A DNA stretch of 64,000 nt from an uncultured Lachnospiraceae bacterium. GTDB lineage: Bacteria; Bacillota; Clostridia; Lachnospirales; Lachnospiraceae. The position numbers and the translations under genes were made by a program. Positions 27,657-57,137 of the stretch are shown here, one piece after another; position 1 is the stretch's first letter, and the number at the start of each line of letters is the position of its first letter. A model generated the notes under the pieces. It was not told the DNA's origin and did not search any database. It was given only the letters and a program-made list of their open reading frames with translations. The stretch is from assembly GCA_947626435.1 (NCBI GenBank), contig CANQSB010000015.1, positions 1-64,000 of the forward strand, read 5' to 3'.

Positions 27657-27820
27657 GCCCGAGCGTGGGCATATACCTCCTAAGGACCTTGGGAAGCGTC
27701 GGCACTTAGCGAAATAAGCTGCAAAAGCGCAGCTCCTTTTGTAGCGCCATTAAGCTTAGTACCGCTACGCTTCCCACTGAGCGCAAGCGATGTCCGCAGG
27801 AGGTATATGCCCACGCTCGG
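27657..27820 (+). repeat. Structured dispersed element, copy 1
   Basis: A 164-bp unit with 23-bp perfectly complementary ends (27659-27681 and 27798-27820; left end CCGAGCGTGGGCATATACC). Inside, GGGAAGCG pairs with CGCTTCCC and GCTGCAAAAG with CTTTTGTAGC around the conserved loop CGCAGCTC. A conserved tract AGCTTAGTACCGCTACGCTT follows. Copies 2 and 3 lie at 31605-31770 and 56972-57137 (opposite strand). It fills most of the 413-bp gap 27490-27902. Confidence 0.85.
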
Positions 27821-27902
27821 ACACCATCATTCGCATAACAAAAAGGAAGCGCCGAAAAAACCAACGCTTCCCCATTTTTTAATTATCTCCACCCCGCAAT
27901 AT

Positions 27903-29933
27903 TTAAGGCAGCTCAAACTGATGCACCATCTCATTGAGCGTAGTCGCCTGCGCCGCAAGCTCCTGCGAAGTAGCCGAGCTCTCCTGCGCCGTAGCCGAAT
28001 TGTCCTGTATTCCCTGAGAAATGTCCTCTATGCCGATACGTATCTGCTCCATGCTCTGTGTCTGCAGCGCCGCATTTTCAGCCGCCTCGGTAATCATTTT
28101 GCTCACGCGCTCAACCGCTGCCACGGTATCACGCAGCGACAGCACTACATCGCCCGCGCGCTCATTACCCTTATCAATCTCCTCCATAGACACATTGATG
28201 AGATCCCTCGTGGTATTCGCCGCCTTGGAGCTCTCGTCAGCAAGCTTTCCAATCTCGCCCGCAACCACTGCAAAGCCCTTGCCCGACTCGCCCGCGCGCG
28301 CCGCCTCTATGGAAGCGTTAAGCGACAGCAGATTTGTCTGATCCGCAATCTCCTCAATAGTCTGGATAATTCCTACTACCTGACGCGACGTCTCCTGAAT
28401 TTTCGTCATAGCCTCCATCATCTGGTTCATCTGATTCTGGCTGTGCTCCATCATTGCCGTTACCTGCTTAGTCTCGTTTGCGGAAGCCTCAAAGCCCTTC
28501 CTGCTCTCATTTACCTGCTCTACCACAGAGCTTGATGTCGCCACAAGCTCCTCAACAGCCGCAGCCTGCGTACCTGCGCCCTCCGCGAGCGCCTGAGCCG
28601 CGTTTGCAAGCTCGTCCGCGCCTGCCGACACCTGATAAGCGCTCTCCGTGATGCCGCCCATCACTTCAATCATAGACTTGGAAATAAGCAGCAGCGCATC
28701 CTTAAGCTTTGCGAACTCGCCCACATAGTCATTTTTAAGCGAAACCGCAAGCTTGCCCTGCGCCATATCGCCAAGCACGTCTGAAATCTCGTCTATATAG
28801 CATATGTACTCTTTAAGCCTTGTAACCGTAGCGCTGATGCTGTCGCCAAGCTGTCCGATTTCATTCTCCGAATGTACATGTATCTCCACATCCAGCTCGC
28901 CCGCCGCAAGCTTCTTAGCCGTCTCGTTTAGATCCTTAATCGGCTCTGAAAGGCTGTGCGACGTCTTCATAATGCTAACCGAAATAACCACAATGCCCAC
29001 GCCAAACGCAACAATAAGTGCAACCAGCATACCGTAAATCATTTCGTGGTACTCAAACGACGGCAGGCTGCTCAAGACGCTGTAGCCCGTCTCGCCCACA
29101 TTTGCCGTAAAGCCGTACTTTGTACCGCTTTGAGACTTATATTTCATAAACTTCTGCTCACAGTTTTCAATAGCGCTCACTACGTTGCCCGAAAGTCCTG
29201 ACTCGTTGATATTCTTCTGTATCAGCGATTCGTCCTCGTCATAGAGAATAGTGCCTGCCGACGTCACCAAAATCACGTAGCCGCCGCGCCCTATGGTATA
29301 TGACTTCATAACGCTGATTATCTGGTCAAGCGAGGTATCAAGCCCTGCCGCCCCGATAATATTTCCCGATGAAGAACGCACGGGCGTTACCACGCTGAGT
29401 ATCATATCGCCTGTACTTGAATCAATATACGGCTCAGTCAAAACCGTCTCTCCCGTCTGCGTGCATACAGACCATGCGCGCGCCGAAAAATCCCAGCCGT
29501 CGCCCGATGTAAAGCCGTCTGACTGCGTGAGAATGCTCGCGTCCATATCGGCTACCCATGCCGCCATAATGTTATCCGCGTCAACACCCGCAATATTTAC
29601 CAAATCCTCATATACCGTCGGGAAATTAGGCTTTTGGGTGATATCGTCACCCGCCGATGTTTCCTCCAGCAATGCCACTATCTCGGGATTGACAGCCATC
29701 TGCTGCGACATCTTTATATACTGGTCAAAGAAGCCCGTGAGCCTGTTTGCCGCCGACTCCGATTCCAGCGTAAGCTCCGTCTCCTTTGCCGACATAATAG
29801 CCGACCAAACCATGACAATCGCGATAACAGCAACCACCACAAAGACTACAAAGACTCTTGTGCCAATCTCAACCATAATTTCCTCTGCAATCCTTTTGCG
29901 CGAGTGGCCTTTCTTTTTTGTGTTTGAACCCAT
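27903..29933 (-). CDS. Methyl-accepting chemotaxis protein with Cache-type sensor
   Basis: 676 residues from the ATG at 29933, which has GAGGAAAAA upstream. Cytoplasmic basic start, membrane segment (about 24-46), extracellular double-Cache-like domain (about 50-300; VWVADMDASILT style PAS core with YVILVTSAGTILYDEDESLI), second membrane segment (about 310-332), HAMP (about 333-390, SEPIKDLNETAKKLAAGELD) and a long signalling hairpin with the tip EIADQTNLLSLNASIEAARA. Its presence implies a chemotaxis system and probably motility. No other che or fla genes are in the window. Confidence 0.95.
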   Translation of the reverse strand: MGSNTKKKGHSRKRIAEEIMVEIGTRVFVVFVVVAVIAIVMVWSAIMSAKETELTLESESAANRLTGFFDQYIKMSQQMAVNPEIVALLEETSAGDDITQKPNFPTVYEDLVNIAGVDADNIMAAWVADMDASILTQSDGFTSGDGWDFSARAWSVCTQTGETVLTEPYIDSSTGDMILSVVTPVRSSSGNIIGAAGLDTSLDQIISVMKSYTIGRGGYVILVTSAGTILYDEDESLIQKNINESGLSGNVVSAIENCEQKFMKYKSQSGTKYGFTANVGETGYSVLSSLPSFEYHEMIYGMLVALIVAFGVGIVVISVSIMKTSHSLSEPIKDLNETAKKLAAGELDVEIHVHSENEIGQLGDSISATVTRLKEYICYIDEISDVLGDMAQGKLAVSLKNDYVGEFAKLKDALLLISKSMIEVMGGITESAYQVSAGADELANAAQALAEGAGTQAAAVEELVATSSSVVEQVNESRKGFEASANETKQVTAMMEHSQNQMNQMMEAMTKIQETSRQVVGIIQTIEEIADQTNLLSLNASIEAARAGESGKGFAVVAGEIGKLADESSKAANTTRDLINVSMEEIDKGNERAGDVVLSLRDTVAAVERVSKMITEAAENAALQTQSMEQIRIGIEDISQGIQDNSATAQESSATSQELAAQATTLNEMVHQFELP

Positions 29934-30040
29934 TTTTTCCTCATTTCTGCGCGGCAAAACCCCAGAATATGCAGAAACCGCGCGTCTGCATATCTGTTTA
30001 GATGCAGGCATTTTGTCAATGCCAAATTAGTTACATTTAT

Positions 30041-30069
30041 ATTTTAACAGATTTATACATTATGCTCAA
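30041..30069 (-). promoter_or_regulatory. Promoter of the chemoreceptor gene
   Basis: Minus strand TTGAGC (30064-30069), a 17-bp spacer and TAAAAT (30041-30046). A small hairpin GGCATT/AATGCC (30007-30022) lies in the leader. No flagellar sigma-28-type sequence is evident. Confidence 0.5.
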
Positions 30070-30156
30070 TTATTTTTTGTCGGTTTTGGTATTTTTGGCT
30101 ATTTTCATAAAAAATTGATAAAAATTTAGTGAAAATATTTCCCTTGACACATAAAA

Positions 30157-30183
30157 AACGCCTGTGCCGAAACACAGACGTTT
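30157..30183 (-). terminator. Intrinsic terminator after the wall hydrolase gene
   Basis: Minus strand AAACGTCTGTG and CACAGGCGTTT form an 11-bp stem with one mismatch around a 5-6-nt loop, followed by TTTTTTATG. Confidence 0.8.
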
Positions 30184-30231
30184 ATTCACAAATGTTTATA
30201 TGCCTATTCCCTGCCGTACCAGAAGCCTATC

Positions 30232-31380
30232 TTACCAGAATACCTGATTTCCTATTATAATGCCATCCTTGCTGCCCGCGCGTCTGAAATGGAGCGCGTC
30301 ACCTACATTCGTAACGCCGTTTATCGCCTCCTGCGCCGCCTGTATGCATGATGCCTTGATGTTGCCGTTTAATATGAGCGACTGCATCCTTCCGCCTGAC
30401 GCCGGTGAAAACTGACCTGACGCATATATGACATCAATAATATTATTTGGATACGCGCCGCACCTTACGCGGTTCATAACTACAGCTCCGACTGCTACCT
30501 GACCTTCATAAGGCTCGCCGCCCGCCTCACATTGTATAAGCGCCGCAAGTATGCTCAGCTCATCGCCCGTAGCGATAGCCGCCTCTCTCTGCGCATTGCG
30601 CTCCGCCTTCTTCTTCTCCTCAGCCTTCTTTTTCTCGGCTTCCTCCCTCGCCAATATAGCTTCCATGGATTCCGCCGTATCAAGCTTAAACTCAACCTTT
30701 ACATACTCCGCTGACACATATCCCGTCGTACCCTCGTAGCTCACGCTCACCCAGTCGCCGTCCTCCGATATCGCCTCAAGCATCTCGCCCTCTGACAAAA
30801 GCCCAAGCACCGGCGCGTTTTTATCCGCCGCCTTTCTAACCCTCAAGGTCTGCGTATTGGAATACGCTGTAAGCATGCCCACATTCTCCGCAAGCTCCTT
30901 GGCTTCTTCACCAAAATATAAATAATCATCCTTTACCCAACCGGTAACATCGCCTGACTTAAGCTTAGTCCATCCATCCTTGCGTTCAATAATCTCTCCG
31001 CCACAATCCTTGTAAAGCACACCAAGCTTCTTCGCGTCCGAATCAGCGCTTTCCCTGATGTTCACATACTGGTTTACATTCGCCATGACAAGCGTATCCT
31101 GTACCTCTTCCTTGTCGGCTTCCTCAATCTTCTTTTCTTCCATCTTCCTGTCAACAGGCAATGTCTTCTTCTGAACAATCCTTTGAATGTCAAGCTCACT
31201 CTCCAAAATGTCCACATCAAGCACCAATGCCGCGCCTGCTGCCGTATTGTTTGAATTCATCTTGTTTAAGGTGGTCTTGCTAGCGTCCTCTGCATTCGAA
31301 ATCATAGGCACCGTACTAAACGCCGTAGCTACTGCCGTACCAATCAGCAGATATTTCCACTTTCTGCAATTTGTCTTCAT
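30232..31380 (-). CDS. Cell wall hydrolase with SH3 domains and SleB-type catalytic domain
   Basis: 382 residues. Signal peptide (1-30), a short variable stretch, two bacterial SH3 domains (about 97-150, NVNQYVNIRESADSDAKKLG; about 170-225, TLRVRKAADKNAPVLGLLSE), an Ala/Glu/Lys-rich helical linker (about 235-265) and a Hydrolase_2 (SleB-like) domain (about 270-382) with LAALIQCEAGGEPYEGQVAV and GAVVMNRVRCG; the Glu in QCEAGGE is the expected catalytic residue. It should cleave peptidoglycan glycan strands in the growing wall or in spore cortex. A strong promoter lies at 31522-31550. Confidence 0.95.
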   Translation of the reverse strand: MKTNCRKWKYLLIGTAVATAFSTVPMISNAEDASKTTLNKMNSNNTAAGAALVLDVDILESELDIQRIVQKKTLPVDRKMEEKKIEEADKEEVQDTLVMANVNQYVNIRESADSDAKKLGVLYKDCGGEIIERKDGWTKLKSGDVTGWVKDDYLYFGEEAKELAENVGMLTAYSNTQTLRVRKAADKNAPVLGLLSEGEMLEAISEDGDWVSVSYEGTTGYVSAEYVKVEFKLDTAESMEAILAREEAEKKKAEEKKKAERNAQREAAIATGDELSILAALIQCEAGGEPYEGQVAVGAVVMNRVRCGAYPNNIIDVIYASGQFSPASGGRMQSLILNGNIKASCIQAAQEAINGVTNVGDALHFRRAGSKDGIIIGNQVFW

Positions 31381-31521
31381 AACTTACCTCCATGTTACAC
31401 TTATGCCACAACTATTTCCGTCATTTTTAGCAAGAAATTTAAAATTTATAACAAATTTTAGTGCATTTCTTACGATTTTGTTTTAAATATTACATAATTG
31501 TTACATATTTATGTTTTTAAT

Positions 31522-31550
31522 ATATTAACAAAGAGTTTTTGCCTTGTCAA
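31522..31550 (-). promoter_or_regulatory. Strong sigma-A promoter of the wall hydrolase gene
   Basis: Minus strand consensus TTGACA (31545-31550), a 17-bp spacer and TAATAT (31522-31527). The leader is about 135 nt. Structured element copy 2 lies 55 bp upstream of this promoter, outside the transcript. Confidence 0.7.
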
Positions 31551-31604
31551 GTTATGAAGAAAATTTTATTGTATATTTTTCCGTACAAAGTTACCTTGTA
31601 CATA

Positions 31605-31770
31605 GCCCGAACAGGGTTATACACCCCCTAAGGACCCTTGGAAAGCGTCGGTCCTTAGCGAGGCAGACTTTAAAAGCGTAGCTCCTTTTAAAACACTGCC
31701 GAGCTTAGTACCGCTACGCTTTCCACCGAGCGCAAGCGCGTCCGCAGGGGGTATATAACCCTGTTCGGGC
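31605..31770 (+). repeat. Structured dispersed element, copy 2
   Basis: 166 bp. Outer arms GCCCGAACAGGGTTATA (31605-31621) and its exact complement (31754-31770), extended by CCCCCT/AGGGGG. Inner pairs: AAGGACC/GGTCCTT, GGAAAGCG/CGCTTTCC, GGCAG/CTGCC and CTTTAAAAG/CTTTTAAAA. The AGCTTAGTACCGCTACGCTT tract is identical to copies 1 and 3. A 62-codon frame across it on the minus strand is not credible as a gene. Confidence 0.85.
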
Positions 31771-31801
31771 GACCTCGCGCCATAATATCCAAGGTTCCAA
31801 G

Positions 31802-32605
31802 TCACACCCCCTTAGCCTTATCCACACAAGCCCCCACAGCATCAATCACAGCCCCTCTAAACCCTTTCTCCTCCAACACCTTCACCGCCTCAATCGTAGT
31901 CCCCGCCGGAGAGCAAACCATATCCTTCAACTCCCCGGGATGCTTCCCCGTCTCCAACATCAGCTTAGCGCTCCCCAACACAGACTGCGCGGCAAACTCA
32001 TACGCCTGTCCTCTAGGCATACCCGCCGCCACAGCCGCATCCGCCATCGCCTCTATAAACATAAACACATAAGCAGGCGAACTCCCCGCCACTCCAATAA
32101 ACGCATCCATCAGCCTCTCAGGCAAAATGCTAGCCTTCCCAAAGCTTCCCATAATCGCCATCACGACCGCCTTATCCGCATCCGCCACATCATCTTTCAA
32201 GCACACACAGGTACACCCCTCGCCAACCATAGCAGGCGTATTCGGCATACAGCGCGCCAACCTCATCGGCGCCCCAAACTGCTCCTCAATCCACGCAATC
32301 GTCTTACCCGCGGCAATAGATATCACAAGCTTATCCGCACCTTTCTCCATGACAATATCCCTTATCTCGTCAATCACTTCCGCAAAAAAAACAGGCTTTA
32401 CAGCAAGAATTATAACATCAGCCTCACTCGCCGTTTTCCTGTTGTCCGTACCGGTTTCAATACCATATTTCTCCGCAATACGCCTCGCCGTCTCCTCCGT
32501 TTTAGACGAGCCCGTTATTTCAGAACTCTTGCAAAGCCCCTTTCCCAAAATACCTCCAATCATAGCCGAAGCCATATTTCCAAGTCCTATAAATCCTATT
32601 TTCAT
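31802..32605 (-). CDS. proC: Pyrroline-5-carboxylate reductase
   Basis: 267 residues, the family length. Last step of proline synthesis: NAD(P)H reduction of pyrroline-5-carboxylate. Rossmann motif MKIGFIGLGNMASAMIGGIL, VIILAVKPVFFAEVIDEI, ISIAAGKTIAWIEEQ, MPNTPAMVGEG and the C-terminal signature AGSSPAYVFMFIEAMADAAV, with SPAGTTIEAVKVLEEKGFRG. Complete. Separated from the rRNA methyltransferase by 45 bp and probably cotranscribed with it. Confidence 0.97.
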   Translation of the reverse strand: MKIGFIGLGNMASAMIGGILGKGLCKSSEITGSSKTEETARRIAEKYGIETGTDNRKTASEADVIILAVKPVFFAEVIDEIRDIVMEKGADKLVISIAAGKTIAWIEEQFGAPMRLARCMPNTPAMVGEGCTCVCLKDDVADADKAVVMAIMGSFGKASILPERLMDAFIGVAGSSPAYVFMFIEAMADAAVAAGMPRGQAYEFAAQSVLGSAKLMLETGKHPGELKDMVCSPAGTTIEAVKVLEEKGFRGAVIDAVGACVDKAKGV

Positions 32606-32650
32606 ACTGCTTGTCCTCTCTTCCTTCTATATATATGTATTTGCAAAACA

Positions 32651-33451
32651 CTATTTATCCACGCGCCTTACCCGCGCCGCCTCATACACCAATATCGCCG
32701 TCGCTATAGCCGCATTCAGCGACTCCACCAATCCCGCCATAGGTATACTGATACACCGCGAAGCCAGCTTTATAGTATCAGGCTTTAAACCGTTCCCCTC
32801 ATTTCCTATAAGAAACGCCGTCGGTCCGGTATAATCCGCCTTGTCATACACGCACGCACCGCCCTCCTCGGAATCGACCGCCGCCGCATAGACCGACACG
32901 CCCACAGCCTTTAAAAGCCCTATTGCCGCACTAAGCTCATCCACCGAAAAAAACGGCACGCGGTAAATCGATCCCATCGTAGAGCGCACTACCTTTGGAT
33001 TAAAAATATCAACCGTATTTTTTGACATAACCACGCCGTCCACACCCGCACCCTCGCATACGCGGAGTATTGTCCCCAAATTTCCGGGGTCCTGTATATC
33101 CTCAAGCAAGACAAAAAGAGGATTTTTTCCCGCCGAAGCCGCAACCGCCTGTTTCAAATCGTAACGCGGCTGTTTTATGACGCTCAAAATCCCCTGCGGT
33201 GTCTGCGTATCTGACATCTTCACAAAAACTTCGTCCGCAACTATCTCATAATCGATTCCCTGCAGGCTGCTGTCTTTGTATTTATTATAGAAGGAATACG
33301 ATACATAAACCTCCTCAACCCAGTTCCTCGGCGCCTCGAAAAACATCTTTATGCCCTCAGCTATGAAAACGCCTTCCTCCCTGCGTGCCTTTGACTTCGC
33401 GCAAAGCGCCCTTACTCTTTTTACGCGGTTATTCGCTAAGCTGTTTATCAT
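32651..33451 (-). CDS. TrmH/SpoU-family RNA 2'-O-methyltransferase
   Basis: 266 residues from the ATG at 33451 with GGGGAATAAAT upstream. N-terminal RNA-binding substrate domain (about 1-95, VRALCAKSKARREEGVFIAE), then a SPOUT knot domain with LLEDIQDPGNLGTILRVCEG, FLIGNEGNGLKPDTI and ISIPMAGLVESLNAAIATAI, the three SpoU motifs. Likely methylates rRNA ribose (23S rRNA, RlmB-like). Target nucleotide not determinable. Confidence 0.95.
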   Translation of the reverse strand: MINSLANNRVKRVRALCAKSKARREEGVFIAEGIKMFFEAPRNWVEEVYVSYSFYNKYKDSSLQGIDYEIVADEVFVKMSDTQTPQGILSVIKQPRYDLKQAVAASAGKNPLFVLLEDIQDPGNLGTILRVCEGAGVDGVVMSKNTVDIFNPKVVRSTMGSIYRVPFFSVDELSAAIGLLKAVGVSVYAAAVDSEEGGACVYDKADYTGPTAFLIGNEGNGLKPDTIKLASRCISIPMAGLVESLNAAIATAILVYEAARVRRVDK

Positions 33452-33477
33452 ATTTATTCCCCATTCCACTCTCATTT

Positions 33478-33542
33478 TTCAGCCAGCCAATATTTGCCCG
33501 CACCACGAAACAGATGAGCAAACAAATAAGTGATTTGGCTGA
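33478..33542 (-). terminator. Hairpin between ktrA and the RNA methyltransferase gene
   Basis: TTCAGCCA (33478-33485) and TGGCTGAA (33535-33542) with inner ATTTGC/GCAAAC pairings enclose a long loop just after the ktrA stop codon. A weak terminator or attenuator. Confidence 0.4.
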
Positions 33543-33562
33543 ATATCAATAATAACAGTACA

Positions 33563-34237
33563 CTAACGCTTCACGAAAAGCTTATTGTCGCTGAGCAGCT
33601 TTTCTGCGGTATCGTTTTCCGCCATTATCATAAGGTTGTCATCATTTGTAATCACATAATCGGCTGAAGGCATAATGCTCATCTCGGCGTCCGTCTTCTT
33701 CTTTATGCCGAGTATCGAGATTTTATGCTTTGCAGCAATGTTTGACTCGCGTATGCTCTTTCCAATCCATTCTTTGAGCGGCAGCATCTCGTAAATGCCA
33801 AAACCGCCCGGCAGCGCGATATAGTCAAAAATGTTATCAAGACTGTAGCGCTCCGCCCATTTCTCGGCAATATCCTTCTCGGGATATATGACCTCGTCCG
33901 CGCCGTTTCTAAGCAGGAATTTAGCCTGAATGTCCCTTGTCGCCTTGCTTATCACGCGCTTTGCGCCAAGCTCCTTTAACAGACTTGTCACCTCAAGGCT
34001 GCTCTGGAAATTGGTGCCGATACATACAAAAACCACATCAAAGTTGCGTATGCCGAGGCTGTTCAGCACTTCCTCCTTAGTGCAGTCGCCAATCTTCGTG
34101 CTGGTGGCATACGGCACCATGTCCTCCACCTTTTCCTCGTTTTCGTCTATAATCATGACATCATGACCATTTTCGAGAAAATTCTTTGCCAAATGATGCC
34201 CGAAACGCCCCATTCCAACAATTAAAATAGATTTCAT
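33563..34237 (-). CDS. ktrA: Potassium uptake regulatory subunit KtrA/TrkA
   Basis: 224 residues from the ATG at 34237 with GGAGGATTA upstream. RCK_N Rossmann domain with KSILIVGMGRFGHHLAKNFL, VMIIDENEEKV and a second nucleotide-contact segment DVVFVCIGTNFQSSLEVTSL; RCK_C domain (about 140-220). It forms the cytosolic ring that gates the KtrB channel in response to ATP/ADP or NAD(H). It starts 23 bp after ktrB, in the same operon. Confidence 0.95.
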   Translation of the reverse strand: MKSILIVGMGRFGHHLAKNFLENGHDVMIIDENEEKVEDMVPYATSTKIGDCTKEEVLNSLGIRNFDVVFVCIGTNFQSSLEVTSLLKELGAKRVISKATRDIQAKFLLRNGADEVIYPEKDIAEKWAERYSLDNIFDYIALPGGFGIYEMLPLKEWIGKSIRESNIAAKHKISILGIKKKTDAEMSIMPSADYVITNDDNLMIMAENDTAEKLLSDNKLFVKR

Positions 34238-34260
34238 TAATCCTCCAATCCGCCCTAAGC

Positions 34261-35607
34261 TTAACCCACTATTATCCTCTCCTGCGGCAGACGCAGTGAA
34301 TTGACAGCGTTTTTCCTTGCAAATACCAGCGCAAAGGACAGGCTGCCCAGCCTTCCGCAATACATGAGGAATATTATGATAAGCCTCGACACTGTGTTTA
34401 AATCCCGCGTAATTCCCATAGTCATTCCCGTCGTGCCTATCGCGGAAAGCACCTCAAAAATCACATCGGCAAACCCAAGCCTTGGCTGCATAGCCATTAT
34501 AATGACCGCCGCCGCTGCCGCAAGTGAAAAGTTTATTGCCACTACGGCATTTGCCTTTTTCACCACATCATCAGTAAGCCGCCTGCCAAAGACATTTATA
34601 TCCTGGCGGTTGCGTATCATAGCTATAGCATAAAACAACAGCACTACTATAGTCGTAGTCTTCACGCCGCCCGCTGTGGAGCCGGGACTTCCGCCTATAA
34701 ACATATACAGCATAGTCAAAAGCTGCCCCGCATTTGACATTGACGCCGTATCCACAGTATTAAAGCCTGCCGTTCTGGGCGTCACCGACGCAAAAAGCGC
34801 CCCCGTAAGCCTTTCAGAAACGCTCATATCTGCAAAAACCGTATTATTTTCAAATACAAGGAAAAGCAGGCTGCCCACGACTGTAAGCGCAAGCGTCATT
34901 GAAAGCGCAAGCTTTGTATGGAGCAGATACCTCTTGAAATGCCACTTATTGCGCGCTATGTCATCCCAGACTATAAAGCCGATTCCCCCGACAAGTATGA
35001 GTGCACAGATTACAAGATTCACAAGCACATCGCCCTCAAACGCCGTAAACGACGAATACGCCTCGTCAATTCCCATCAAATCAAAGCCCGCGTTGCAGAA
35101 TGCCGATATTGAATGGAAAATTGAGAAATATATGCCTTTCGCCAAGCCAAATCTCGGTATAAAGCGTATTGAAAGCAGAGCCGCTCCCAAAAGCTCTATG
35201 CAGAGCGCTCCCTTGACGATGTTTTTCACAAGACGCACAATGCCTGCTATTTCAAGAGTATTTACACTCTCATGCAATGTCTCGCGCTCCTGCAGTCCTA
35301 TCCTGCGCTTTAGCAGTACGGATATATATACGCCAATCGTCATAAATCCAAGACCGCCCACCTGTATCATGCAGAGTATCACAAGCTGCCCGAAAAGCGT
35401 CCAGTTTTGATATGTGTCCGCCACCGCAAGCCCTGTCACGCAGGTGGCAGAGGTCGCAGTAAAAAGCGCCGTCAATGCATTGGTGCCTCCTGTGCGCGTG
35501 GCTATGGGGAGACTCAGCAGAAATGCTCCCAACAGTATTATCAGCGCAAAGCCAAGCGCGATAAATCTCGTGCTTGACCTTTTCATTTTAGTTGATTTTT
35601 TTTCCAT
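34261..35607 (-). CDS. ktrB: Potassium uptake channel subunit KtrB/TrkH
   Basis: 448 residues, highly hydrophobic, with four M1-P-M2 repeats: TSATCVTGLAVADTY, FCNAGFDLMGIDEAYSSF, SVTPRTAGFNTVDTASMSNA, and AIGTTGMTMGITRDLN. The Gly in each P-loop that lines the K+ filter is present. GGSPGSTAGGVKTTT is a family signature before the last repeat. It makes the membrane pore of the Ktr K+ (Na+-coupled) transporter with KtrA. Confidence 0.96.
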   Translation of the reverse strand: MEKKSTKMKRSSTRFIALGFALIILLGAFLLSLPIATRTGGTNALTALFTATSATCVTGLAVADTYQNWTLFGQLVILCMIQVGGLGFMTIGVYISVLLKRRIGLQERETLHESVNTLEIAGIVRLVKNIVKGALCIELLGAALLSIRFIPRFGLAKGIYFSIFHSISAFCNAGFDLMGIDEAYSSFTAFEGDVLVNLVICALILVGGIGFIVWDDIARNKWHFKRYLLHTKLALSMTLALTVVGSLLFLVFENNTVFADMSVSERLTGALFASVTPRTAGFNTVDTASMSNAGQLLTMLYMFIGGSPGSTAGGVKTTTIVVLLFYAIAMIRNRQDINVFGRRLTDDVVKKANAVVAINFSLAAAAAVIIMAMQPRLGFADVIFEVLSAIGTTGMTMGITRDLNTVSRLIIIFLMYCGRLGSLSFALVFARKNAVNSLRLPQERIIVG

Positions 35608-35715
35608 TAAATAATCCTTTTCAATCTTTTCTTCTAATTATCCCTCGTCCGCTTTACCCTGCTACACTTCTTAAATATCAAAAAGTTTCAATCGGCTTTA
35701 TTGTTTACTTAAAGC

Positions 35716-43298: not shown

Positions 43299-43410
43299 CT
43301 CTTATTGTTCGACTTATCTTACGACGTTAGCTCGCTCAGGTTGGCACCTTCCATACTGGGGTTGCCGTGGCTTCTCAGGTCCTCTGTACCTCCACCACTC
43401 TGAATAAGAG
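43299..43410 (-). promoter_or_regulatory. SAM-I (S-box) riboswitch aptamer
   Basis: On the minus strand: P1 CTCTTATTCAGAG, GGTGGAGG, CCTGAGAAGCCACGGCAACC, AAGGTGCCAACCTGAGCGAG, and closing AATAAGAG. These are the conserved S-box blocks in order (kink-turn GAAGCC, the CGGCAACC and GCC-AA-CCAG-like core, K-turn partner). It binds SAM and triggers the terminator at 43242-43273, reducing metK expression. Confidence 0.95.
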
Positions 43411-48695: not shown

Positions 48696-51350
48696 TTACT
48701 CTTTCACAATAGCCTTCCTAATCAAATCCACAGGTATCATGGTCGCCGCAAGGATAAACACGGCTATCCAGCCTGTAATCCCGAACGGCACGCAGCTGAA
48801 CATATTTCCAATCCATGTAAACAGCGGGAACGGAATAAGCGCCGCATTCACTATAGCCGCCTGCACAAGTATTATAATGCAGAACACCTTCAAAAATCCC
48901 GTATTTTCATTCAAGCCCTTGAAAATGCCAAAGCCGTCGTCCCTCACATTGAAGCCGTTAAACAGCGCGCTCACGATAAACAGCACGAAATACCCCGTCA
49001 TATGCTGCTCCTCGCTGTCAAACAGATTCACAAAGAACGGATGCTTTAGATATACAAAGCTCAGAATAATAAGCCATGCGCCCATTATCAAAATCTGCGC
49101 CATCATCTTTTTGCTTATAATGCTCTCGTCTCTCCTTCTGGGCTTTTCCTTCATATACTTTTCAAGCGCAGGCTCGTTGCCAAGCATAATCGCGCCCAAG
49201 CCGTCCATTACAAGGTTTACGAACAAAAGATGCGTAACCTTTAACGGCTCCTCCACGCCGAAAAACGGAGCTATCGCGCTCACTACCACAGCCGTCACGT
49301 TTATTACAAGCTGGAACTTGCAGAACTTCAAAATATTGTGGTAAATCGTCCTGCCGTACCATATCGCGTCTTTGATTGACTTGAAATTGTCGTCAAGCAC
49401 GACAATCTTTCCTGCCTCTTTCGCCGCCTCAGTGCCGCTTCCCATGGCAAATCCGACGTCAGCGCGTTTAAGCGCGGGCGAATCGTTCACGCCGTCGCCC
49501 GTCATGCCCACTACAAGGTTCATCTCCTGACAGAGCCTTACCATTCTCGACTTGTCCGTAGGCAGCGCCCTCGCGATTACTCTGATATCCTTTATAATCG
49601 CCTTGACCTCGCCATCGCTCATAGAGTTAAGCTCTGCAGACGTTATCGCCCTGTCAGACGCCTGCGTGATAAGCCCCGCGTCCTTTGCAATGGAAACGGC
49701 AGTTTCAAGCCTGTCACCGGTAATCATTACAACCTGAATGCCAGCCTCCCTAACCTCTCTGATTGCCTCCTTAGCCTCGGGCCTTACGTCATCCCTTATC
49801 GCCACAAGACCTACAAGCACCACATCATCATTAATCTTATTCTCCGTAAGCGCGCTCTCAGAATACCCAAAAGCCAGCACGCGCATAGCACGCGACGCAA
49901 GCTCATTGATTTTTTTGTTGAGCTCGTCGAGATTTAAGTCCACCACATTTCCGTCTTTGTCAAGCGCCTTTTTCGCTGCGGCAAGAAATCTCTCGGGCGC
50001 GCCCTTGTAAAATGTCCTGCCTAAATTTCCGATATGCGCCTGGCTGAATTTGTTTGCCGAATTAAAGCCCTGGGACGCATCGACGACATACTCCTTATTT
50101 GCCGAAAGAAGATTGAACGTGTCCTCCCCGATAAACTTCATAAGCGCCTGGTCTGTCGCATTGCCGCCGATTACGCGGTGCTCCCTGTCAAACATAGATG
50201 CTGTATTCTTTCCAATCGCAATATCGAGCAGCTCCTTTATCTTTCCATGATTTTCAAGGCTGCCAATCTCTATCGTCTCGCCCTGCGCCGTGAAAAACTC
50301 CACAACCTCGAGCATACCCTTTGTGATCGTACCCGTCTTATCGCTGAAAAGAATATTCAAAGAGCCCGCTGTCTCAATACCCTCCGCCTTGCGCACAAGC
50401 ACGTTGTGGTCAAGCATTTTGCTCGTATTCTGCATAAGCACGAGCGAAATCATAAGCGGGAGTCCCTCGGGCACGGCACAGACGATAATAACAATCGCAA
50501 GCGTAACCGCCTCTATGACATCCTGCAGGATAACATTCCAGTCATTTGCAAAATACGCCGATATGCCGCCCGCCTGCGTTATAAAGAAAATAACATACAG
50601 CACGGCAATAGCAATCGCGCCGATATAGCCGAATGTAGAAATCTGCCCCGCGAGCTTGGCAAGCTTCACCTTTAACGGCGAATCAGGCTCGTCCTCCTGC
50701 ATCTCCTCCGCCATCTTGCCCATCATGGTTTTCAAGCCTACCTTGCGCACGTCGAGCACGCCCTCGCCGTCAAACACCACAGCGCCCCTGAAAAGCGAAT
50801 GCTTGTCCACGAACGTATCGCCCGTAATATTGTCGGCAAGCTCCACTCTGCCTTCCGCCGCCGTCTTTTTGCACTCCTCAGCCTCGCCGTTGAGCGCCGA
50901 GTTATCTACTCTCAAATCTCCATCGACAAGTATTCCGTCGGCGGGAATTTTATCTCCCGACTGCAGAAGCACGCTGTCGCCGACTACCACATCATCTACC
51001 TCTATCACAGTCACCATGCCGTTTCGGTAGACCTTGCAAGTATCCTTTTTAGTGCTGTCCTTGAGCTCGCGGTACTTCGTGTCGCTTGCCACGCTTGTCT
51101 TTGCGGACACCACCGCCACTATGAGCACAGCTACTATCGTGCCGACAGGCTCATAAATCTCCGCGTAGCCCAGAAAGAACATCACTATCATAATCGCCGC
51201 GATGATAAGCAGAATCTTTATCATCGGATCGCCGAAGGTTTCCTTGAACGCCTCCCAAAAGGTAGTAGGCTCCGAATCAGGTATCGCATTGGAGCCGTTT
51301 TTCTCCCTTGACTGGCGAACCTCCTCGTCTGTCAATCCATTAAATTTCAT
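48696..51350 (-). CDS. P-type Ca2+-transporting ATPase
   Basis: 884 residues. Cation_ATPase_N (1-70), actuator domain (about 115-230), phosphorylation motif LFSDKTGTITKGM (about 340), MITGDRLETAVSIAKDAGL, and the hinge GMTGDGVNDSPALKRADVGF. The transmembrane CAVPEGLPLMISL motif is that of SERCA/PMCA-type pumps. Pumps Ca2+ (or Mn2+) out of the cytosol at the expense of ATP. Calcium ATPases are frequent companions of TerD genes. It lies 82 bp downstream of a terD gene, same strand. Confidence 0.95.
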   Translation of the reverse strand: MKFNGLTDEEVRQSREKNGSNAIPDSEPTTFWEAFKETFGDPMIKILLIIAAIMIVMFFLGYAEIYEPVGTIVAVLIVAVVSAKTSVASDTKYRELKDSTKKDTCKVYRNGMVTVIEVDDVVVGDSVLLQSGDKIPADGILVDGDLRVDNSALNGEAEECKKTAAEGRVELADNITGDTFVDKHSLFRGAVVFDGEGVLDVRKVGLKTMMGKMAEEMQEDEPDSPLKVKLAKLAGQISTFGYIGAIAIAVLYVIFFITQAGGISAYFANDWNVILQDVIEAVTLAIVIIVCAVPEGLPLMISLVLMQNTSKMLDHNVLVRKAEGIETAGSLNILFSDKTGTITKGMLEVVEFFTAQGETIEIGSLENHGKIKELLDIAIGKNTASMFDREHRVIGGNATDQALMKFIGEDTFNLLSANKEYVVDASQGFNSANKFSQAHIGNLGRTFYKGAPERFLAAAKKALDKDGNVVDLNLDELNKKINELASRAMRVLAFGYSESALTENKINDDVVLVGLVAIRDDVRPEAKEAIREVREAGIQVVMITGDRLETAVSIAKDAGLITQASDRAITSAELNSMSDGEVKAIIKDIRVIARALPTDKSRMVRLCQEMNLVVGMTGDGVNDSPALKRADVGFAMGSGTEAAKEAGKIVVLDDNFKSIKDAIWYGRTIYHNILKFCKFQLVINVTAVVVSAIAPFFGVEEPLKVTHLLFVNLVMDGLGAIMLGNEPALEKYMKEKPRRRDESIISKKMMAQILIMGAWLIILSFVYLKHPFFVNLFDSEEQHMTGYFVLFIVSALFNGFNVRDDGFGIFKGLNENTGFLKVFCIIILVQAAIVNAALIPFPLFTWIGNMFSCVPFGITGWIAVFILAATMIPVDLIRKAIVKE

Positions 51351-51431
51351 AGTTGTCTCCTATATAATCTTATTTTAATCCTATATTGCCTAAAAACAGT
51401 TCCATATTCAGCCAAAACGCCGCCTTGCGCT

Positions 51432-52019
51432 TTACATGTAGCGTCCTACAAGCTCTCCCAAGCCCGGGTCAGTGGTTCCCTGTCCGATGGCGTTAAACTT
51501 CCACTCGCCATCATGCCTGTACACCTCTCCGAAAATAAGCGCGAGCATGCCCGAATAGTCGTCTGTAAGGTTATACCTGCAAAGCTCGGTATTGTTTGAA
51601 GCGTCTACTATGCGGATAAACGCATTTTTAATCATTCCGAAATGCTGTTTTCTCTGCACAGCCTGATAAATATTGACAACCACCGTTATCCTGTCATACT
51701 GCGCCGGAACATTCGCCAAATCAACAACAATCTGCTCGTCATCTCCGTCACCCGCGCCAGTAAGGTTATCTCCCATATGCTGTACAGAGCCCGATGGGTG
51801 CTTTAAATTCCCAAAAAATACGACATCCAGCTTATCAACAATCTTTCCATTTGTAAGCAGGAACGCCGACGCGTCACAGTCAATCGCCTGCGGCTTAGGC
51901 GCAAAAAGCCCTCTCTTTTGGGGCGCCTCATCCCAGCCAAGACCTATAATCACTCTTGAAAGTCCCGCCCTCTCCTTAGTCAGGCTGACCTTCTGGCCTT
52001 TTTGTAAACTAACCGACAT
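51432..52019 (-). CDS. TerD-family protein
   Basis: 195 residues. Contains IGLGWDEA, a [20 protein letters not shown] Ca2+-binding segment and [18 protein letters not shown]. It is the most divergent of the three paralogues, with an inserted Lys/Gly/Pro segment in the first 50 residues (QKRGLFAPKPQAIDC). TerD proteins bind Ca2+ and act in stress and tellurite resistance loci. AGGAGG precedes the ATG. Confidence 0.95.
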   Translation of the reverse strand: MSVSLQKGQKVSLTKERAGLSRVIIGLGWDEAPQKRGLFAPKPQAIDCDASAFLLTNGKIVDKLDVVFFGNLKHPSGSVQHMGDNLTGAGDGDDEQIVVDLANVPAQYDRITVVVNIYQAVQRKQHFGMIKNAFIRIVDASNNTELCRYNLTDDYSGMLALIFGEVYRHDGEWKFNAIGQGTTDPGLGELVGRYM

Positions 52020-52031
52020 CTTAAAAACCTC

Positions 52032-52613
52032 CTATTCTACTTCAACTCCATAATTTGCGCACAGCGCGGCAAGCCCGCCCTGATAGCCGCTGCCGATAGC
52101 GTTAAACTTCCACTCGCCGTTGTTTCTGTAAAGCTCGCCGAACACAGCCGCCGTCTCGATTGAGAAGTCCTCGCCCAAATCATACCTCAAAAGCTCCTCG
52201 CCGTTCGCCTCATTGTAAATGCGGATAAAAGCGTTTGAAACCTGTCCAAAATTCTGCCGTCTCTGCTCCGCTTCGTAAATCGTCACAGTAAACGCAATCT
52301 TTGTAATATTTGACGGCACTTTTGACAAATCAACCTTAATCTGCTCATCATCTCCGTCGCCCGCACCCGTAAGGTTATCGCCCATATGCTGCACAGCACC
52401 TGACGGATGTGTCAGATTTCCGAAAAACACAAAATCCTCAGACACAGACACCTTCCCGCTGTCCGTCAGCAAAAAAGCCGCCGTATCCAAATCGAAAGCC
52501 GAACCCGTGTCAAAAGCATTCACATCCCATCCAAGCCCCACAACAACCTTTGAAAGCCCCGGATTATCCTTAGTAATACTAACCTTCTGCCCCTTCTGTA
52601 AACTAACAGGCAT
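52032..52613 (-). CDS. terD: TerD-family protein
   Basis: 193 residues from the ATG at 52613 ([14 protein letters not shown]) with AAGGAGGTAG upstream. [11 protein letters not shown], the [20 protein letters not shown] Ca2+-binding loop, and [20 protein letters not shown]. Close to the next paralogue. It starts 12 bp before the divergent TerD gene, so they are cotranscribed; the hairpin at 52711-52765 lies upstream. Confidence 0.96.
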
Positions 52614-52710
52614 AACAACTACCTCCTTAACAAGATACAACAAATTACAAAAAATCTTTAAAACACCTGACTAAAACCCGAAAAGAACACCCGCCCTTGG
52701 CGTTCTTTGT

Positions 52711-52765
52711 AAAACCTAGCAAGTCTTAGCGTGTGTCTTTTACACGCTTAGAGTTGCTTGGTTTT
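52711..52765. terminator. 24-bp imperfect hairpin between terD genes
   Basis: AAAACCTAGCAAGTCTTAGC and its partner arm form a stem of 24 positions with 3 mismatches around GTCTTTT. It overlaps the end of the terD gene at 52764. It may attenuate transcription between the first and second terD genes. Confidence 0.6.
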
Positions 52766-53345
52766 ATGCTACCTCTATACCATAGTGCCCGCAAAGCGCA
52801 GCAAGCCCGCCCTGAAACCCGCTGCCGATGGCATTAAATTTCCACTCGCCATTGTGCCTGTAAAGCTCGCCTACAACAACCGCCGTCTCAATCGAGAAGT
52901 CCTCGCCCAAGTCATACCTTATAAGCTCCGTACCGGTATTTTCATCCACAATCCTTATAAACGCGTTGGAAACCTGTCCAAAATTCTGCCTCCGCGCCTC
53001 AGCATCATATATAGTCACAGTAAACGCAATCTTTGACACATTTGCAGGCACAGCGCTCAAATCAACCTCTATCTGCTCATCATCGCCTTCGCCTGCTCCT
53101 GTAAGGTTATCTCCCATATGCTTGACAGCGCCTGTCGGATGCTCCAGATTTCCGTAGAAAACAAATTCCTTCTCAGTAGGGCATTTCCCGTTTTCGCCCG
53201 CCATAAACGCGGCGGCGTCAAGATCAAAATCCGCGCCTGAATCAAACGCGTTTACGTCCCAGCCCAAGCCTACCATAACTTTTTTTAATCCCGGATTACC
53301 TTTTGTCAAGTCAACCTTCTGTCCCTTTGATAAATTAATTGGCAT
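52764..53345 (-). CDS. terD: TerD-family protein
   Basis: 193 residues ([14 protein letters not shown]). [40 protein letters not shown] and [20 protein letters not shown]. Three related TerD proteins in a row resemble B. subtilis yceC-yceD-yceE. AAAGAGG precedes the ATG. It lies 71 bp downstream of telA. Confidence 0.96.
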
Positions 53346-53416
53346 CTTTTTACCTCTTTCTGCGCTGCTCTTAATTATTATATCTGCGGTTTGCGGCAGC
53401 GCTCCTTCAAACCTTT

Positions 53417-54565
53417 TTACTTTGCGGGCGGCATATGATATCTTTGCTCAAAGTCAGCCTTAATCTGTTCAAGCCTTGCCTGATCCTCAATGCGCTTCTG
53501 GCGCGCGTTGTCCTGAATCTGCTTTGTCTCATTTATGCCGTCAACAATAGTTTTCCAAGTAGTTTCAAGCGTCTCAATTTTGATAGAACTGCCTGACGCA
53601 AGCTGCGTCGTAAGCTTTGACTGCTCTACGGTATTCTGCGCGTTTCTTATAAGCATCTCGTTTGTCTTTTCGTCAAGCGCGGAAATGGCGTCTGCCTGAA
53701 TACGCTGGCGCTTTAGCAGAATAGCCTGCGCAATGCCCTGCTTAAAAACAGGCAGCGTAATGATAAACGCTGAGTTTATCTTTCTTACAAGGTTCATATT
53801 ACTGAATTCCATTGTCTTTATCATAGGAATGGACTGCATAGCCACACTCTCAGCCGTGCGCAGATCCTGAGTCCTCTGCTCAAGCATCATCAACGCCTGT
53901 CTGAGCGACTGCAGCTCAAACTGGATTGAATTATCGCCCGTTACCTGCATGTCGTTCTCGCGCTTTGCTATGTATTCCTCAAGCTCCCTGCAGCCCTGCT
54001 CGCCCGCAAGGATATACTTTACAAGCTGATGGTAATAATTTACATTCGCCTCAAACATATCGTTGAGCTTGCGGTTTGACTGCTTTATCTCTGATTCATA
54101 CTGCTTTAGCTGCACATAAATCTTGTCAACCTCATCGCCCATCGTATGATACTTCGCGAGGAGCTTGTCAACCTGCTTGCGCATATTCCCGAAAAGCTTG
54201 TCAAAAAAACCCGGGTTGTCTTTAAGCTCGTCAGGATCAAACTTCTCCATTACCTTCGCAAGAGCATTGAGCATTTCGCTTGAATCGTCTATCTGCGACA
54301 TATTCATGCTGTTCAGTATAACGTCTGACGCTTTGGAAATCTCCTCCGCCGCCTCTGCGCCGAAGCTTACGATACTCTCCATATTATCAAGTTCAATCGT
54401 GCTGACAATGGCGTCAACCTCCGGAGAATTTACAAGCGCGGCGTTCATCTGCTGCCTGTCCGCCACGATATCATAGCTCTCCACAACCTCAATCTCCTGC
54501 TTTGGCTGCGCAGCCACAGCCGTTGTCTGGTCATTCTGTGATGCCCTGCTAAAATCAAGTCCCAT
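53417..54565 (-). CDS. telA: Toxic anion resistance protein TelA family (YceH-like)
   Basis: 382 residues, largely helical: [20 protein letters not shown] near the start, then long coiled coils ([36 protein letters not shown]-like stretch) and the conserved [20 protein letters not shown]. This is PF05816, found beside TerD and YceG in ter/yce operons. It starts 4 bp after yceG, so they are cotranscribed. Role unknown, perhaps membrane-associated stress scaffold. Confidence 0.95.
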
Positions 54566-54569
54566 AGTT

Positions 54570-56843
54570 TTAATTTCCTCTCTTAAAAATTATGTCACGC
54601 AATGAACGGCGTGAGTTAATGTTTACCTTGTCAAAATTCGGAATCGCCAAATCATATATATATTCGCCAATCTGGTGCTCCTCTATTATATTTTTCTCAA
54701 AATACTTTTCTACGCACTGATATCCCGTTGGCACGAAAAAAACTATGTCAAAGCCCACAAGATTTAAGAAAGCCGCCATAATGCTGTCCTCCAGAGAAAG
54801 CATGGCTTCCGAGGTATTGATGTATATGAGCTTCGGGTTTGTCTTCGTAAAGTCAAACCGCTGTATAAGCCTTAAAATATCCCTGTTAAGATTAAGCACG
54901 GTTGAAATTACCGTATATTGCGTACCGTTTTCATAAGTGCCGTCAATTATATTTGAATCAAGCAGCATCTGCAGCTTGTCAAGGATATGCTCCTGCATCT
55001 CGTCGCGCAGAAAGCCGTATGCGTAATTTTTATGCGCCTTGACTGCGTTTTTCTGCAGCTTTTTATCCTTGAGGAATGTCGCAGCCGCCGATTTAAACGG
55101 ATTTTCGTCCTCGCGCCGTATATAAGGCGCACCTTTTATGACAAACGTGTCATTTGTGATAAGTTTCTTTATCTCTGTCCAGTATTCAGGAACTTTGCCG
55201 TCCTTCACGCCCGATACCTTTGAAAAAATCACAGGCACGGTCACTATGGAATCCGTTATCGCAAAATTGGGGCGGAAGCGTATCTCCTCCTTCCACAGTA
55301 TCGCAATTTCCTCATATATAGAGCGCAGCGTCACGCAGACAGCCCGCTGGTACTGTTGGTTTCGGTACATTCCCGTGTCCTGGTACATCACGCTGTCAAG
55401 CTCACGCTCCGCGTGGTATGCCGCTGTGCCCATCTGCATATTCGTGTTTTCGCGCGGAAGCTTATCGACCTTTAGATAGTCCGCAAAGCGCTGCTCGTAC
55501 AGATTGTCCGCAGAAAGCCTGCATTTATCATTGATGTCAGGTATCAGTATAAGTACGTCGACAGGCAAGAGACTCAGCATTTTCATAAAAAGCGCCTCGC
55601 TGTCGTTGCGGCAGCCGCCGAGGTAAATAAACACGGCAACCTCGGGCATTTTCCAGCTTTTAAAAAGCCTGCCCTGATAGCGTCTGAGCCAGCAGAGCAG
55701 ATGCACCGCCTTGTTGGTGAGCTTGTTTATGGTGTCGTCGGTCTGCTTTATGTCCTCTAGCATAACGTCAATAAACGCCTTTTTCATAAGCTTCTGCAGC
55801 TCATTGCTTGGAGCGTATATGATGTTTGACGACAGCTCCTCCAGCATACGGTTTGTATTGTCGTAATTGTGCCTGCGTATGCCTGCTATTTCCTCGTTTG
55901 TCGGAGCGGGAATGCCATACTCGGCAAGCGCAAAACCTCTGTTTGAGCCTTTTATTTCCATATATAATTTATACAGGTCATTCAGATAAGTAATCTTGTC
56001 CTCCACGCCCTGCACACGCATAAAGCAGTTGTAAAAAAAGCGCTCGTCAGCGCCTCTTAGCGCGGCAGGCGTGAGTATATCGGCAAAGCCTTTTCCGCTT
56101 ATCCATGCATTCGTGCAGTTTACAAATGCGGGCGCGTCGCCGTAGAGCTTTTGAGTGTTGAATCTGTTCTCTATTTCCGCTCTGAGCCATTTTATGCCAA
56201 AATCCCTCGGAAACGCTGTCATATCGGGAAGTTCAAGATTGTCCGAATATTCAAGCTTTTTGTCCAGCTCGCGGTATGCGCTGTCGCCGTTGTACTGCAA
56301 AAGCACTATGTCACAGCCTGATTTGGAGAGCACGTTGAACATTTTAAGCTCATATCCGCTTATGCTGCCTTCGTACAAAATCTTTGGCAGCATGTTCCCG
56401 CCGAGAAGGTTCATGATGCGCTCAAATTTATAGTAGAGCCAGCACATGAATTTGATGTAGGCGTTCTTTAAAATGTTCTCGTTCTTTCCGTCTTTACGCA
56501 TTTGCTCGAGCGTATCGTAAAGCGCTTCGGCAACGTTTGTCCGCTGGTAGTCGTTCATGCGGGGCAGCCATTTTTTCAGGCCAAATGATATAAAGCTTAC
56601 GCTGAGCCTGAAATCTGAGCCCATTATTTCGACGTAGTAGGACAGGTTATTTTCGTCGGGGTTTGCGAGTCTCCCCTCGAGAATTACGCCTGTCTTGCGC
56701 GCCGCCTCATAGTATTTTAGGAGGAATTCTCTGACACTGTCATTATAGCCGTTTATTCTGTAGAAATATACGCCGCCTGCGCTGCGTTCATTGCATTTCA
56801 GGAAATAATCGTCTAAATTGCTTAGTGTCCTGCGTTCAAACAT
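54570..56843 (-). CDS. yceG: YceG-family protein of the ter biosynthetic module
   Basis: 757 residues from the ATG at 56843; the open frame from 56870 begins only with TTG. Matches the family labelled putative component of the biosynthetic module (B. subtilis YceG). Two related halves are visible: an N-terminal part to about 230 with FMCWLYYKFERIMNLLGGNM, LSKSGCDIVLLQYNGDS, and a second from about 380 with LLPVDVLILIPDINDKC, ending LVGFDIVFFVPTGYQCVEKY. The hydrophobic strands suggest an alpha/beta enzyme fold, but no catalytic residue can be named. Promoter at 56891-56919. Confidence 0.93.
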   Translation of the reverse strand: MFERRTLSNLDDYFLKCNERSAGGVYFYRINGYNDSVREFLLKYYEAARKTGVILEGRLANPDENNLSYYVEIMGSDFRLSVSFISFGLKKWLPRMNDYQRTNVAEALYDTLEQMRKDGKNENILKNAYIKFMCWLYYKFERIMNLLGGNMLPKILYEGSISGYELKMFNVLSKSGCDIVLLQYNGDSAYRELDKKLEYSDNLELPDMTAFPRDFGIKWLRAEIENRFNTQKLYGDAPAFVNCTNAWISGKGFADILTPAALRGADERFFYNCFMRVQGVEDKITYLNDLYKLYMEIKGSNRGFALAEYGIPAPTNEEIAGIRRHNYDNTNRMLEELSSNIIYAPSNELQKLMKKAFIDVMLEDIKQTDDTINKLTNKAVHLLCWLRRYQGRLFKSWKMPEVAVFIYLGGCRNDSEALFMKMLSLLPVDVLILIPDINDKCRLSADNLYEQRFADYLKVDKLPRENTNMQMGTAAYHAERELDSVMYQDTGMYRNQQYQRAVCVTLRSIYEEIAILWKEEIRFRPNFAITDSIVTVPVIFSKVSGVKDGKVPEYWTEIKKLITNDTFVIKGAPYIRREDENPFKSAAATFLKDKKLQKNAVKAHKNYAYGFLRDEMQEHILDKLQMLLDSNIIDGTYENGTQYTVISTVLNLNRDILRLIQRFDFTKTNPKLIYINTSEAMLSLEDSIMAAFLNLVGFDIVFFVPTGYQCVEKYFEKNIIEEHQIGEYIYDLAIPNFDKVNINSRRSLRDIIFKRGN

Positions 56844-56890
56844 AATGCTTTGTGTCACCTCGTCTGCCAAAACAATACTTTACTTTTTTT

Positions 56891-56919
56891 ATAATATCAT
56901 TTATTGCTGTTCAATTCAA
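56891..56919 (-). promoter_or_regulatory. Promoter of the yceG-telA-terD operon
   Basis: Minus strand TTGAAT (56914-56919), a 17-bp spacer and TATTAT (56891-56896). The structured element at 56972-57137 begins 53 bp upstream. Confidence 0.6.
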
Positions 56920-56971
56920 TAAAAAATGGGGGGTATAAATGTTAATTTTATTAATTATGTGGCGGCAGGCC

Positions 56972-57137
56972 GCCCGAGCAGGGGCATACACCCTATTCAG
57001 ACGCGCTTGCGCTCAGTGGAAAGCGTAGCGGTACTAAGCTCGGCAGTGCTTTAAAAGGAACCACGCTTTCAAAGCCTGCCTCGCTAAGGACCGACGCTTT
57101 CCAAGGGTCTTCATAGGGTGTATGCCCCTGCTCGGGC
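56972..57137 (-). repeat. Structured dispersed element, copy 3 (inverted orientation)
   Basis: 166 bp on the opposite strand to copies 1 and 2. Ends GCCCGAGCAGGGGCATACAC (through 56996) pair perfectly over 25 bp with 57113-57137. Internal: GGAAAGCG/CGCTTTCC, GGCAG/CTGCC, GCTTTGAAAG/CTTTTAAAGC. Flank TGCCAATACACTA is shared with copy 1 and GCGGCCTGCCGCC resembles copy 2's GCGACCTCGCGCC. Confidence 0.85.

Follow-up and report, generated by a model that had tools for sequence, protein, structure and literature searches.

A 64,000-nt stretch of DNA from an uncultured Lachnospiraceae bacterium (assembly GCA_947626435.1, contig CANQSB010000015.1, positions 1 to 64,000; hereafter the window) carries three copies of a palindromic element of about 166 bp, and we found them to be members of a large hairpin family, seen mainly in Lachnospiraceae and apparently without a name. 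We are confident that this is a dispersed palindromic mobile family, and we infer that its members move. The best explanation overall, which we favour with modest confidence, is that they are non-autonomous palindromic interspersed elements, each consisting of a ~166 bp hairpin with ~12 bp on each side. Hairpin DNA is probably the recognised form, by a judgement only somewhat better than even, and current activity of the family is doubtful.

A preliminary description of the window had reported three look-alike copies with a shared core and co-varying internal stems. All three were located at the coordinates given there (Table 1) as one ~166 bp element, and the core and stem co-variation were as described; as a copy number, three was a large undercount, with at least 52 in the genome of the window (G000). 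The three scored 78-90 bits (E 4e-19 to 2e-22) with the covariance model R1, whose 26 diverse training cores included copy 2 but not copies 1 and 3, while other window matches reached at most 20.2 bits, three of them being the opposite strand of the same palindromes. Folded as RNA, copy 2 reached -97.4 kcal/mol (z -9.4), and folded as DNA it reached -56.8 (z -8.9), with 0/200 shuffles as good in either case. The arms had been called perfectly complementary over 23, 17 and 25 bp. These lengths held as uninterrupted runs, but copies 1 and 2 each have one mismatch: the arms of copy 1 pair over 1 bp, one mismatch and 23 bp, owing to a right end of CTCGGAC in place of the CTCGGGC of other copies, those of copy 2 over 17 bp, one mismatch and 7 bp, and those of copy 3 over 25 bp.

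The element folds into a three-way junction composed of a ~25-bp outer arm, a conserved inner stem and a small hairpin (P3) with a GNRA-type loop. The letters of the outer arm differ among copies and its complementarity is kept; the inner stem contains a fixed T.T mismatch, a tandem G.A step and a CT bulge, followed by a variable apical hairpin. The outer arm began 43-45 nt 5' of the core CGG in 86/119 elements, even with unrelated arm sequence, and the P3 loop was GNRA in 109 of the 111 recognised copies of G000 and its two close species (G017 and G028) and in 24/26 diverse copies, the exceptions being L092 and L109. About 12 bp beyond each end were weakly shared (103 copies), the commonest letters being CCAANANNCTA before and GNCCTNTTNCCA after, with CTA (57-97% each) before the stem and G-N-C-C after it. 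The element is short, high-copy and non-coding and has terminal inverted repeats, all of which are traits of a miniature inverted-repeat transposable element (MITE). Variants were also seen: a second palindrome (AAACGGAAAGATTTTC...), whose pattern occurs 5 times in G000 with at most one mismatch, is inserted in the small hairpin of L037, L066, L095, L112, L131 and the copy at G000:C36:6873, and a subtype (L029, L226, L252, L330, L331) has an extra small hairpin of the GCTGCAAAGAACGCAGC type in the apical region. By eye, pieces of an element's own variable arm recur 30-70 bp beyond the left end in L006, L021, L027, L039 and L040, which looks like tandem duplication with deletion.

BLAST returned 51 matching pieces in G000 (40 of 62 candidates scored). 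R1 matches numbered at least 52 in G000, at least 41 each in G017 and G028, at least 22 in G026, 2 in G004 and 1 in G002, with none in the remaining 32 of the 38 genomes of the genus; these counts are lower bounds, 106 candidates being scored per genome. In an order-level draw 23/245 genomes carried the element, spread over 12 genera (at most 16 candidates scored per genome), and all 23 fall among the 41 same-family genomes listed, the 202 unlisted genomes being match-free. A phylum-level set held 5 carriers among 398 genomes, four from the same family and one (G641) from another class. The seven G641 copies (L341) have the same core outside Lachnospiraceae, which suggests transfer. A pattern scan of named genomes gave many Lachnospiraceae metagenome-assembled genomes (MAGs) among the matches listed; around pattern matches in Gemmatimonadetes, Halogranum, Psychrobacter and UBP16 records, inspection by eye revealed no element, and one more pattern match fell in an Actinophytocola record. 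Sequence searches of phage and plasmid collections found no element in either, and a phage or plasmid origin was rejected on that ground; one pattern search of these collections allowed for a gap of exactly 3 bases, so that elements of the 2-base form would escape it. In Rfam 15 the only gathering-score match of the window was a S-adenosylmethionine (SAM) riboswitch elsewhere in it, and a permissive search of nine loci gave sub-threshold matches only, so a known RNA family was also rejected. Among the papers listed by searches of the open-access literature, a body that excludes subscription journals and preprints, no title or abstract start described such an element in Lachnospiraceae. That the preliminary description knew of no matching described family agrees with these results for Rfam and the literature covered.

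Covariation extended well beyond the window. Among the 26 diverse cores, 11/23 pairs changed on both sides compared with 6.4 in shuffles, there were 59 two-sided cells compared with 16, and 96.5% of cells paired compared with 28-47% in slid controls. Further copies with arms that do not co-vary had been named beforehand as evidence that would speak against a folded structure; at least 12/17 outer-arm positions paired in 115 of 119 further elements. In 51 comparisons between orthologues from G000, G017 and G028, covering 22 outer pairs (four comparisons and all groups with local duplicates were omitted), we counted 50 two-sided changes, all compensated, and 20 one-sided changes, and no two-sided change broke pairing. 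Compensatory stem changes in a dispersed hairpin, a trait of the REPIN/RAYT systems, are thus present. The preliminary description took such changes to mean that the fold is selected. The covariation is real, but it does not prove selection by itself, because DNA copying within a palindrome also makes covariation and the orthologues show changes of this copying type.

RNA helices tolerate G-U pairs but not A-C, whereas in DNA a G-U and an A-C cell are each other's complement. In the outer arm of the 115/119 elements (1955 cells), 1913 cells were Watson-Crick, 13 G-U, 8 A-C and 21 other, by a pairing choice that scored G-U slightly above A-C. The G026 set (18 copies after one decayed copy, L313, was dropped) gave 350 Watson-Crick, 2 G-U, 3 A-C and 5 other among 360 outer-arm cells. 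As a control, 29 distinct SAM riboswitch sequences of the genus yielded 765, 46, 1 and 0, respectively, a generous count in that their structure was predicted by a method which itself favours G-U; the outer arm differed from this control at Fisher p 0.0002, with copies that are non-independent. The control family was taken from the riboswitch in the window (RF00162, 67.6 bits, 43299-43410, minus strand). The apical stem had 4 G-U and 7 A-C by locus (0 and 5 in an earlier count), and the lower inner stem 18 G-U and 1 A-C by locus (23 and 2 in the earlier count of 119 elements), this excess sitting at three positions with G on the left in 17/18. The outer arm and apical stem therefore look DNA-like and the lower inner stem RNA-like, and RNA selection is not supported for the outer arm.

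Comparison of orthologues also revealed multi-base changes in the arms. The perfect inner inverted repeat was 10 bp long in 104/124 elements; in 5 others, from 4 loci, it reached 19-29 bp, and at each of these loci the left inner arm is now complementary to the right, while the orthologue still has 10 bp (for example L008 versus L210 and L072 versus L038). The outer inverted repeat usually extends for 25 bp, as far as the tandem G.A or its AA/GC variant (exactly 25 bp in 59/124). It exceeded 25 bp in 11/124 elements, one of which (L107) was extended outward rather than inward, and at 5 loci the orthologue had at most 25 bp; at one of these 5 the longer form was found in two of the three species. 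L039 and L202 are set apart by an outer GA-to-TC change. The longer form would be the derived state, because it is rare. Template switching makes multi-base changes that turn one arm into the complement of the other (PMC8794818). In the present family, the orthologue comparisons show some arms to have been homogenised by changes of this template-switch-like kind, so that the covariation is partly mutational. That the fixed mismatches are kept in most copies and in other genera despite such rewriting speaks for their selection in those copies that spread.

A mechanism that would join these observations is as follows. A trans-acting enzyme that recognises one DNA strand folded as a hairpin or cruciform may have spread the element. 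The conserved core, the fixed mismatches and the GNNA-type loop would be read by sequence, and the ~25-bp outer arm mainly as a near-perfect duplex length, with letters drifting and pairing staying. Template-switch-like rewriting of one arm to match the other supplies part of the covariation, and some copies may be lost through hairpin deletion that leaves an arm scar. The narrower proposal that the enzyme's substrate is a folded single DNA strand whose arm letters are free, with template switching helping to keep pairing near perfect, we offer only tentatively; if true, one family holds very many arms that differ in sequence and yet are paired.

Several observations weigh against the explanation by non-autonomous DNA elements. 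Thirty-seven of the 50 compensated orthologue changes come from comparisons with apparent whole-element replacement, doubtful orthology or a paired 1-bp deletion counted repeatedly, which leaves 13. The lower inner stem has the G-U excess given above, and the GNRA loop of P3 fits RNA as well as DNA. The neighbour families that recur in other genomes are ordinary ones (GH25, ABC-transporter and two-component genes), and a search limited to Y1 among mobile-element enzymes gave 0 matches to the Y1 transposase (PF01797) in G000. At the element-free sites compared, there was neither a clean pre-insertion site nor a target duplication: two absences resemble deletion scars, with a solo arm at the L239 site (G028, G000) and a collapsed hairpin at the L331 site (G028), and the other five regions (L001, L018, L032, L330 and the first L326 copy) are too diverged to classify.

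These points have to be set beside three other readings. If the element acted as a folded RNA, either a small RNA or its own mobility intermediate, the covariation would be ordinary RNA selection. The three G-U-rich positions of the lower inner stem, the P3 loop, the strongly conserved unpaired letters of the core with its tandem G.A and T.T mismatches, and the excess of covariation over shuffles all favour this reading, which we nevertheless regard as unlikely, given the near parity of G-U and A-C in the outer arm (13 versus 8; 2 versus 3 in G026), the apical stem (4 versus 7), the even orientation relative to genes and the absence of an Rfam match; moreover, the 17/18 inner-stem G-U pairs with G on the left may reflect C-to-T mutation in the pyrimidine-rich right arm. 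Rather improbable in our view is that the copies are old and dead, with complementarity kept solely by replication template switching and the hairpin unselected. Arms rewritten relative to orthologues at 4 inner and 5 outer loci speak for it, as does the finding that between species the element, at 94.7% identity, is about as conserved as the flank stretches that align best (93.5%; the element scored higher in 37/52 comparisons), yet the fixed mismatch types persist in most copies and in distant genera though rewriting would erase them, and in the G026 set the core is far more conserved than the arm.

Very unlikely, finally, is the reading in which the copies are host-functional chromosomal sites, serving the nucleoid, replication or mRNA stability and selected copy by copy. 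Twelve loci are common to the three close species, many with unchanged arms, and L293 and L296 occupy the same place between rmlD-like and rmlB-like genes in two species of another genus; against this, 32/38 genomes of the genus have no match, copies are absent or replaced between close species, and orientation is even with no clear preference for a gene arrangement. Because element identity is near flank identity, strong copy-by-copy constraint is not demonstrated.

No evidence for selection on an RNA fold is usually rated higher than covariation. The present family, a large set of repeats, covaries strongly, yet its outer part lacks an RNA signature, and between close species the arms differ by multi-base steps that make them complementary. 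It offers a natural test bed for separating RNA selection from DNA-hairpin processes, and a caution to those who search repeats for RNAs by covariance. It is also an addition to the hairpin elements without a known mobiliser, found mainly in Lachnospiraceae.

The occupancy of 12 loci in all three close species, and of further loci in two, shows that many copies are old. At some loci the element is far more diverged than its flanks (82% versus 98% identity for L067 and L025; 83% versus 94% for L020 and L053), which fits replacement by another copy. Among G026 copies the outer arm differs by 27-29% and the core by 5% (11/18 copies), a contrast weaker in G000, where the figures are 30% and 16% (27 copies). 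Nearest-paralogue identity in G000 had a median of 90% (39 copies, without one identical pair). That pair, L326 (G000:C1, 34500-39500), consists of two same-orientation copies that match at every base over 170 bp, have different flanks and are separated by 1,247 bp; in the corresponding region of G028, a different copy (L107) lies close to one of the two, and no element aligns with the other. The idea that the outer arm is copied from the target was dropped: a solo arm seen both at G000 C1:240335 and at its counterpart in G028 would be consistent with an empty site, but microhomology fits deletion, and the L326 pair shows arms copied along with the element. At the element-free place of copy 2, ~45 bp are unaligned.

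The preliminary description had also called the copies intergenic, variable in orientation and mobile-looking, and the wider survey bears this out. At 42 places in G000 (open frames stood for genes, and three of the places are pieces within L024), the element runs along both neighbours at 13, against both at 12, between convergent genes at 8 and divergent genes at 6, with 3 unknown. Orientation is therefore even, which speaks against a leader or terminator; both were rejected, the element also having no T-run at its end. A conserved partner gene was likewise rejected, since what recurs beside the elements is the ordinary families named above and genes that sister MAGs share in near-identical form. 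Where a genome has one or two copies, ten neighbour proteins included products of rhamnose-pathway, glycosyltransferase and fatty-acid genes and no transposase. The copies at L293 and L296 are single and diverged; L289 and L295 are single copies as well, from two species of another genus; both sit in the same gene cluster, one on either side of its formyltransferase gene. PF01797 matched in 2/6 genomes, G017 having a single interrupted copy and G028 fragments, and no element lay within ~1.5 kb of these matches (best model match 7.6 bits, E 0.67). Y1 mobilisation in the present genome was rejected, PF01797 being absent from G000. An autonomous parent was not found among the neighbours, solo ends and Y1 matches inspected; among many solo ends, a few unusual ones were inspected as possible marks of a parent, of which C1:240335 is deletion-scar-like and C13:77665 lies inside an open frame, and this candidate was set aside.

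Integron attC is a recombination site read as a folded single strand with extrahelical bases, and its stem letters vary. The present element differs in size and core, and no cassettes or arrays were seen here. REPINs, which are doublets of REP (repetitive extragenic palindromic) sequences tied to RAYT transposases, are likewise dispersed palindromes of fixed layout, with compensatory changes in one stem part and conservation of others, and the length and hairpin capacity of their variable part seem to matter (PMC3116915). A REPIN, however, has conserved REP ends and a variable middle (PMC3116915), whereas the present element has a conserved core and a variable outer arm, a three-way junction, no fixed GTAG tag and no RAYT-type gene in G000. 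The Bacillus cereus repeats, among them bcr1 with an average of 39 copies per strain, are also Firmicutes repeats of 100-400 bp with mobile-DNA features, but belong to an unrelated host group, and their mobility is linked to TTTAT repeats (PMC6542083); TTTAT is absent from the consensus of 18 nt on each side of the present element (103 copies). GTAG- and CGTC-tagged palindromic repeats resemble it in having unpaired end tags and, for CGTC, in having no known transposase, but are 20-40 bp long (PMC3733652) compared with ~166 bp here, where G-N-C-C follows the stem and no fixed tag, neither GTAG nor CGTC, was found unpaired at the element ends. The template-switch work shares with our data covariation made in one event by multi-base arm rewriting, but concerns RNA genes (PMC8794818) rather than a mobile-looking DNA palindrome with conserved mismatches that rewriting could erase. 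By architecture and spread, the element is a new family of the REPIN, bcr and MITE kind, and it is outside REPIN/RAYT by the tests made. Its covariation appears to arise largely in the DNA, through pairing and copying slips, rather than from a folded RNA.

Table 1 Window coordinates of the three copies, their parts and their left flanks.
Feature	Position	Strand	Remark
Hairpin element, copy 1 (L030)	27657..27822	+	Right terminus partly decayed
Hairpin element, copy 2 (L001)	31605..31770	+	Syntenic place in G028 without element
Hairpin element, copy 3 (L002)	56972..57137	-	Carried by G017 and G028 at the same place with identical outer arms (22/22 pairs)
Copy 2, outer arm, left (P1)	31605..31629	+	24/25 positions pair with 31746-31770; letters vary among copies, pairing barely
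Copy 2, outer arm, right	31746..31770	+	Partner of 31605..31629
Copy 2, inner stem, lower part (GGAAAGCG)	31640..31647	+	Partner 31717-31724; co-varies among copies; G-U excess
Copy 2, inner stem, lower part, 3' side (CGCTTTCC)	31717..31724	+	
Copy 2, conserved core, 5' side (TCGGNNCTTAGCGA)	31648..31661	+	Contains T.T mismatch and tandem G.A step
Copy 2, conserved core, 3' side (GAGCTTAGNNCCGCTAC)	31701..31717	+	Contains 2-nt CT bulge
Copy 2, small hairpin P3	31728..31739	+	GNRA-type loop, GCAA at 31732-31735
Copy 1, left flank (TGCCAATACACTAACTA)	27640..27656	+	Similar to the family's shared left flank
Copy 3, left flank (TGCCAATACACTA on the minus strand)	57138..57150	-	Similar to the family's shared left flank

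Elsewhere in the window, a palindromic stretch in an intergenic gap at 52697-52796 gave a weak match to the covariance model (19 bits) and is probably an unrelated hairpin or terminator.

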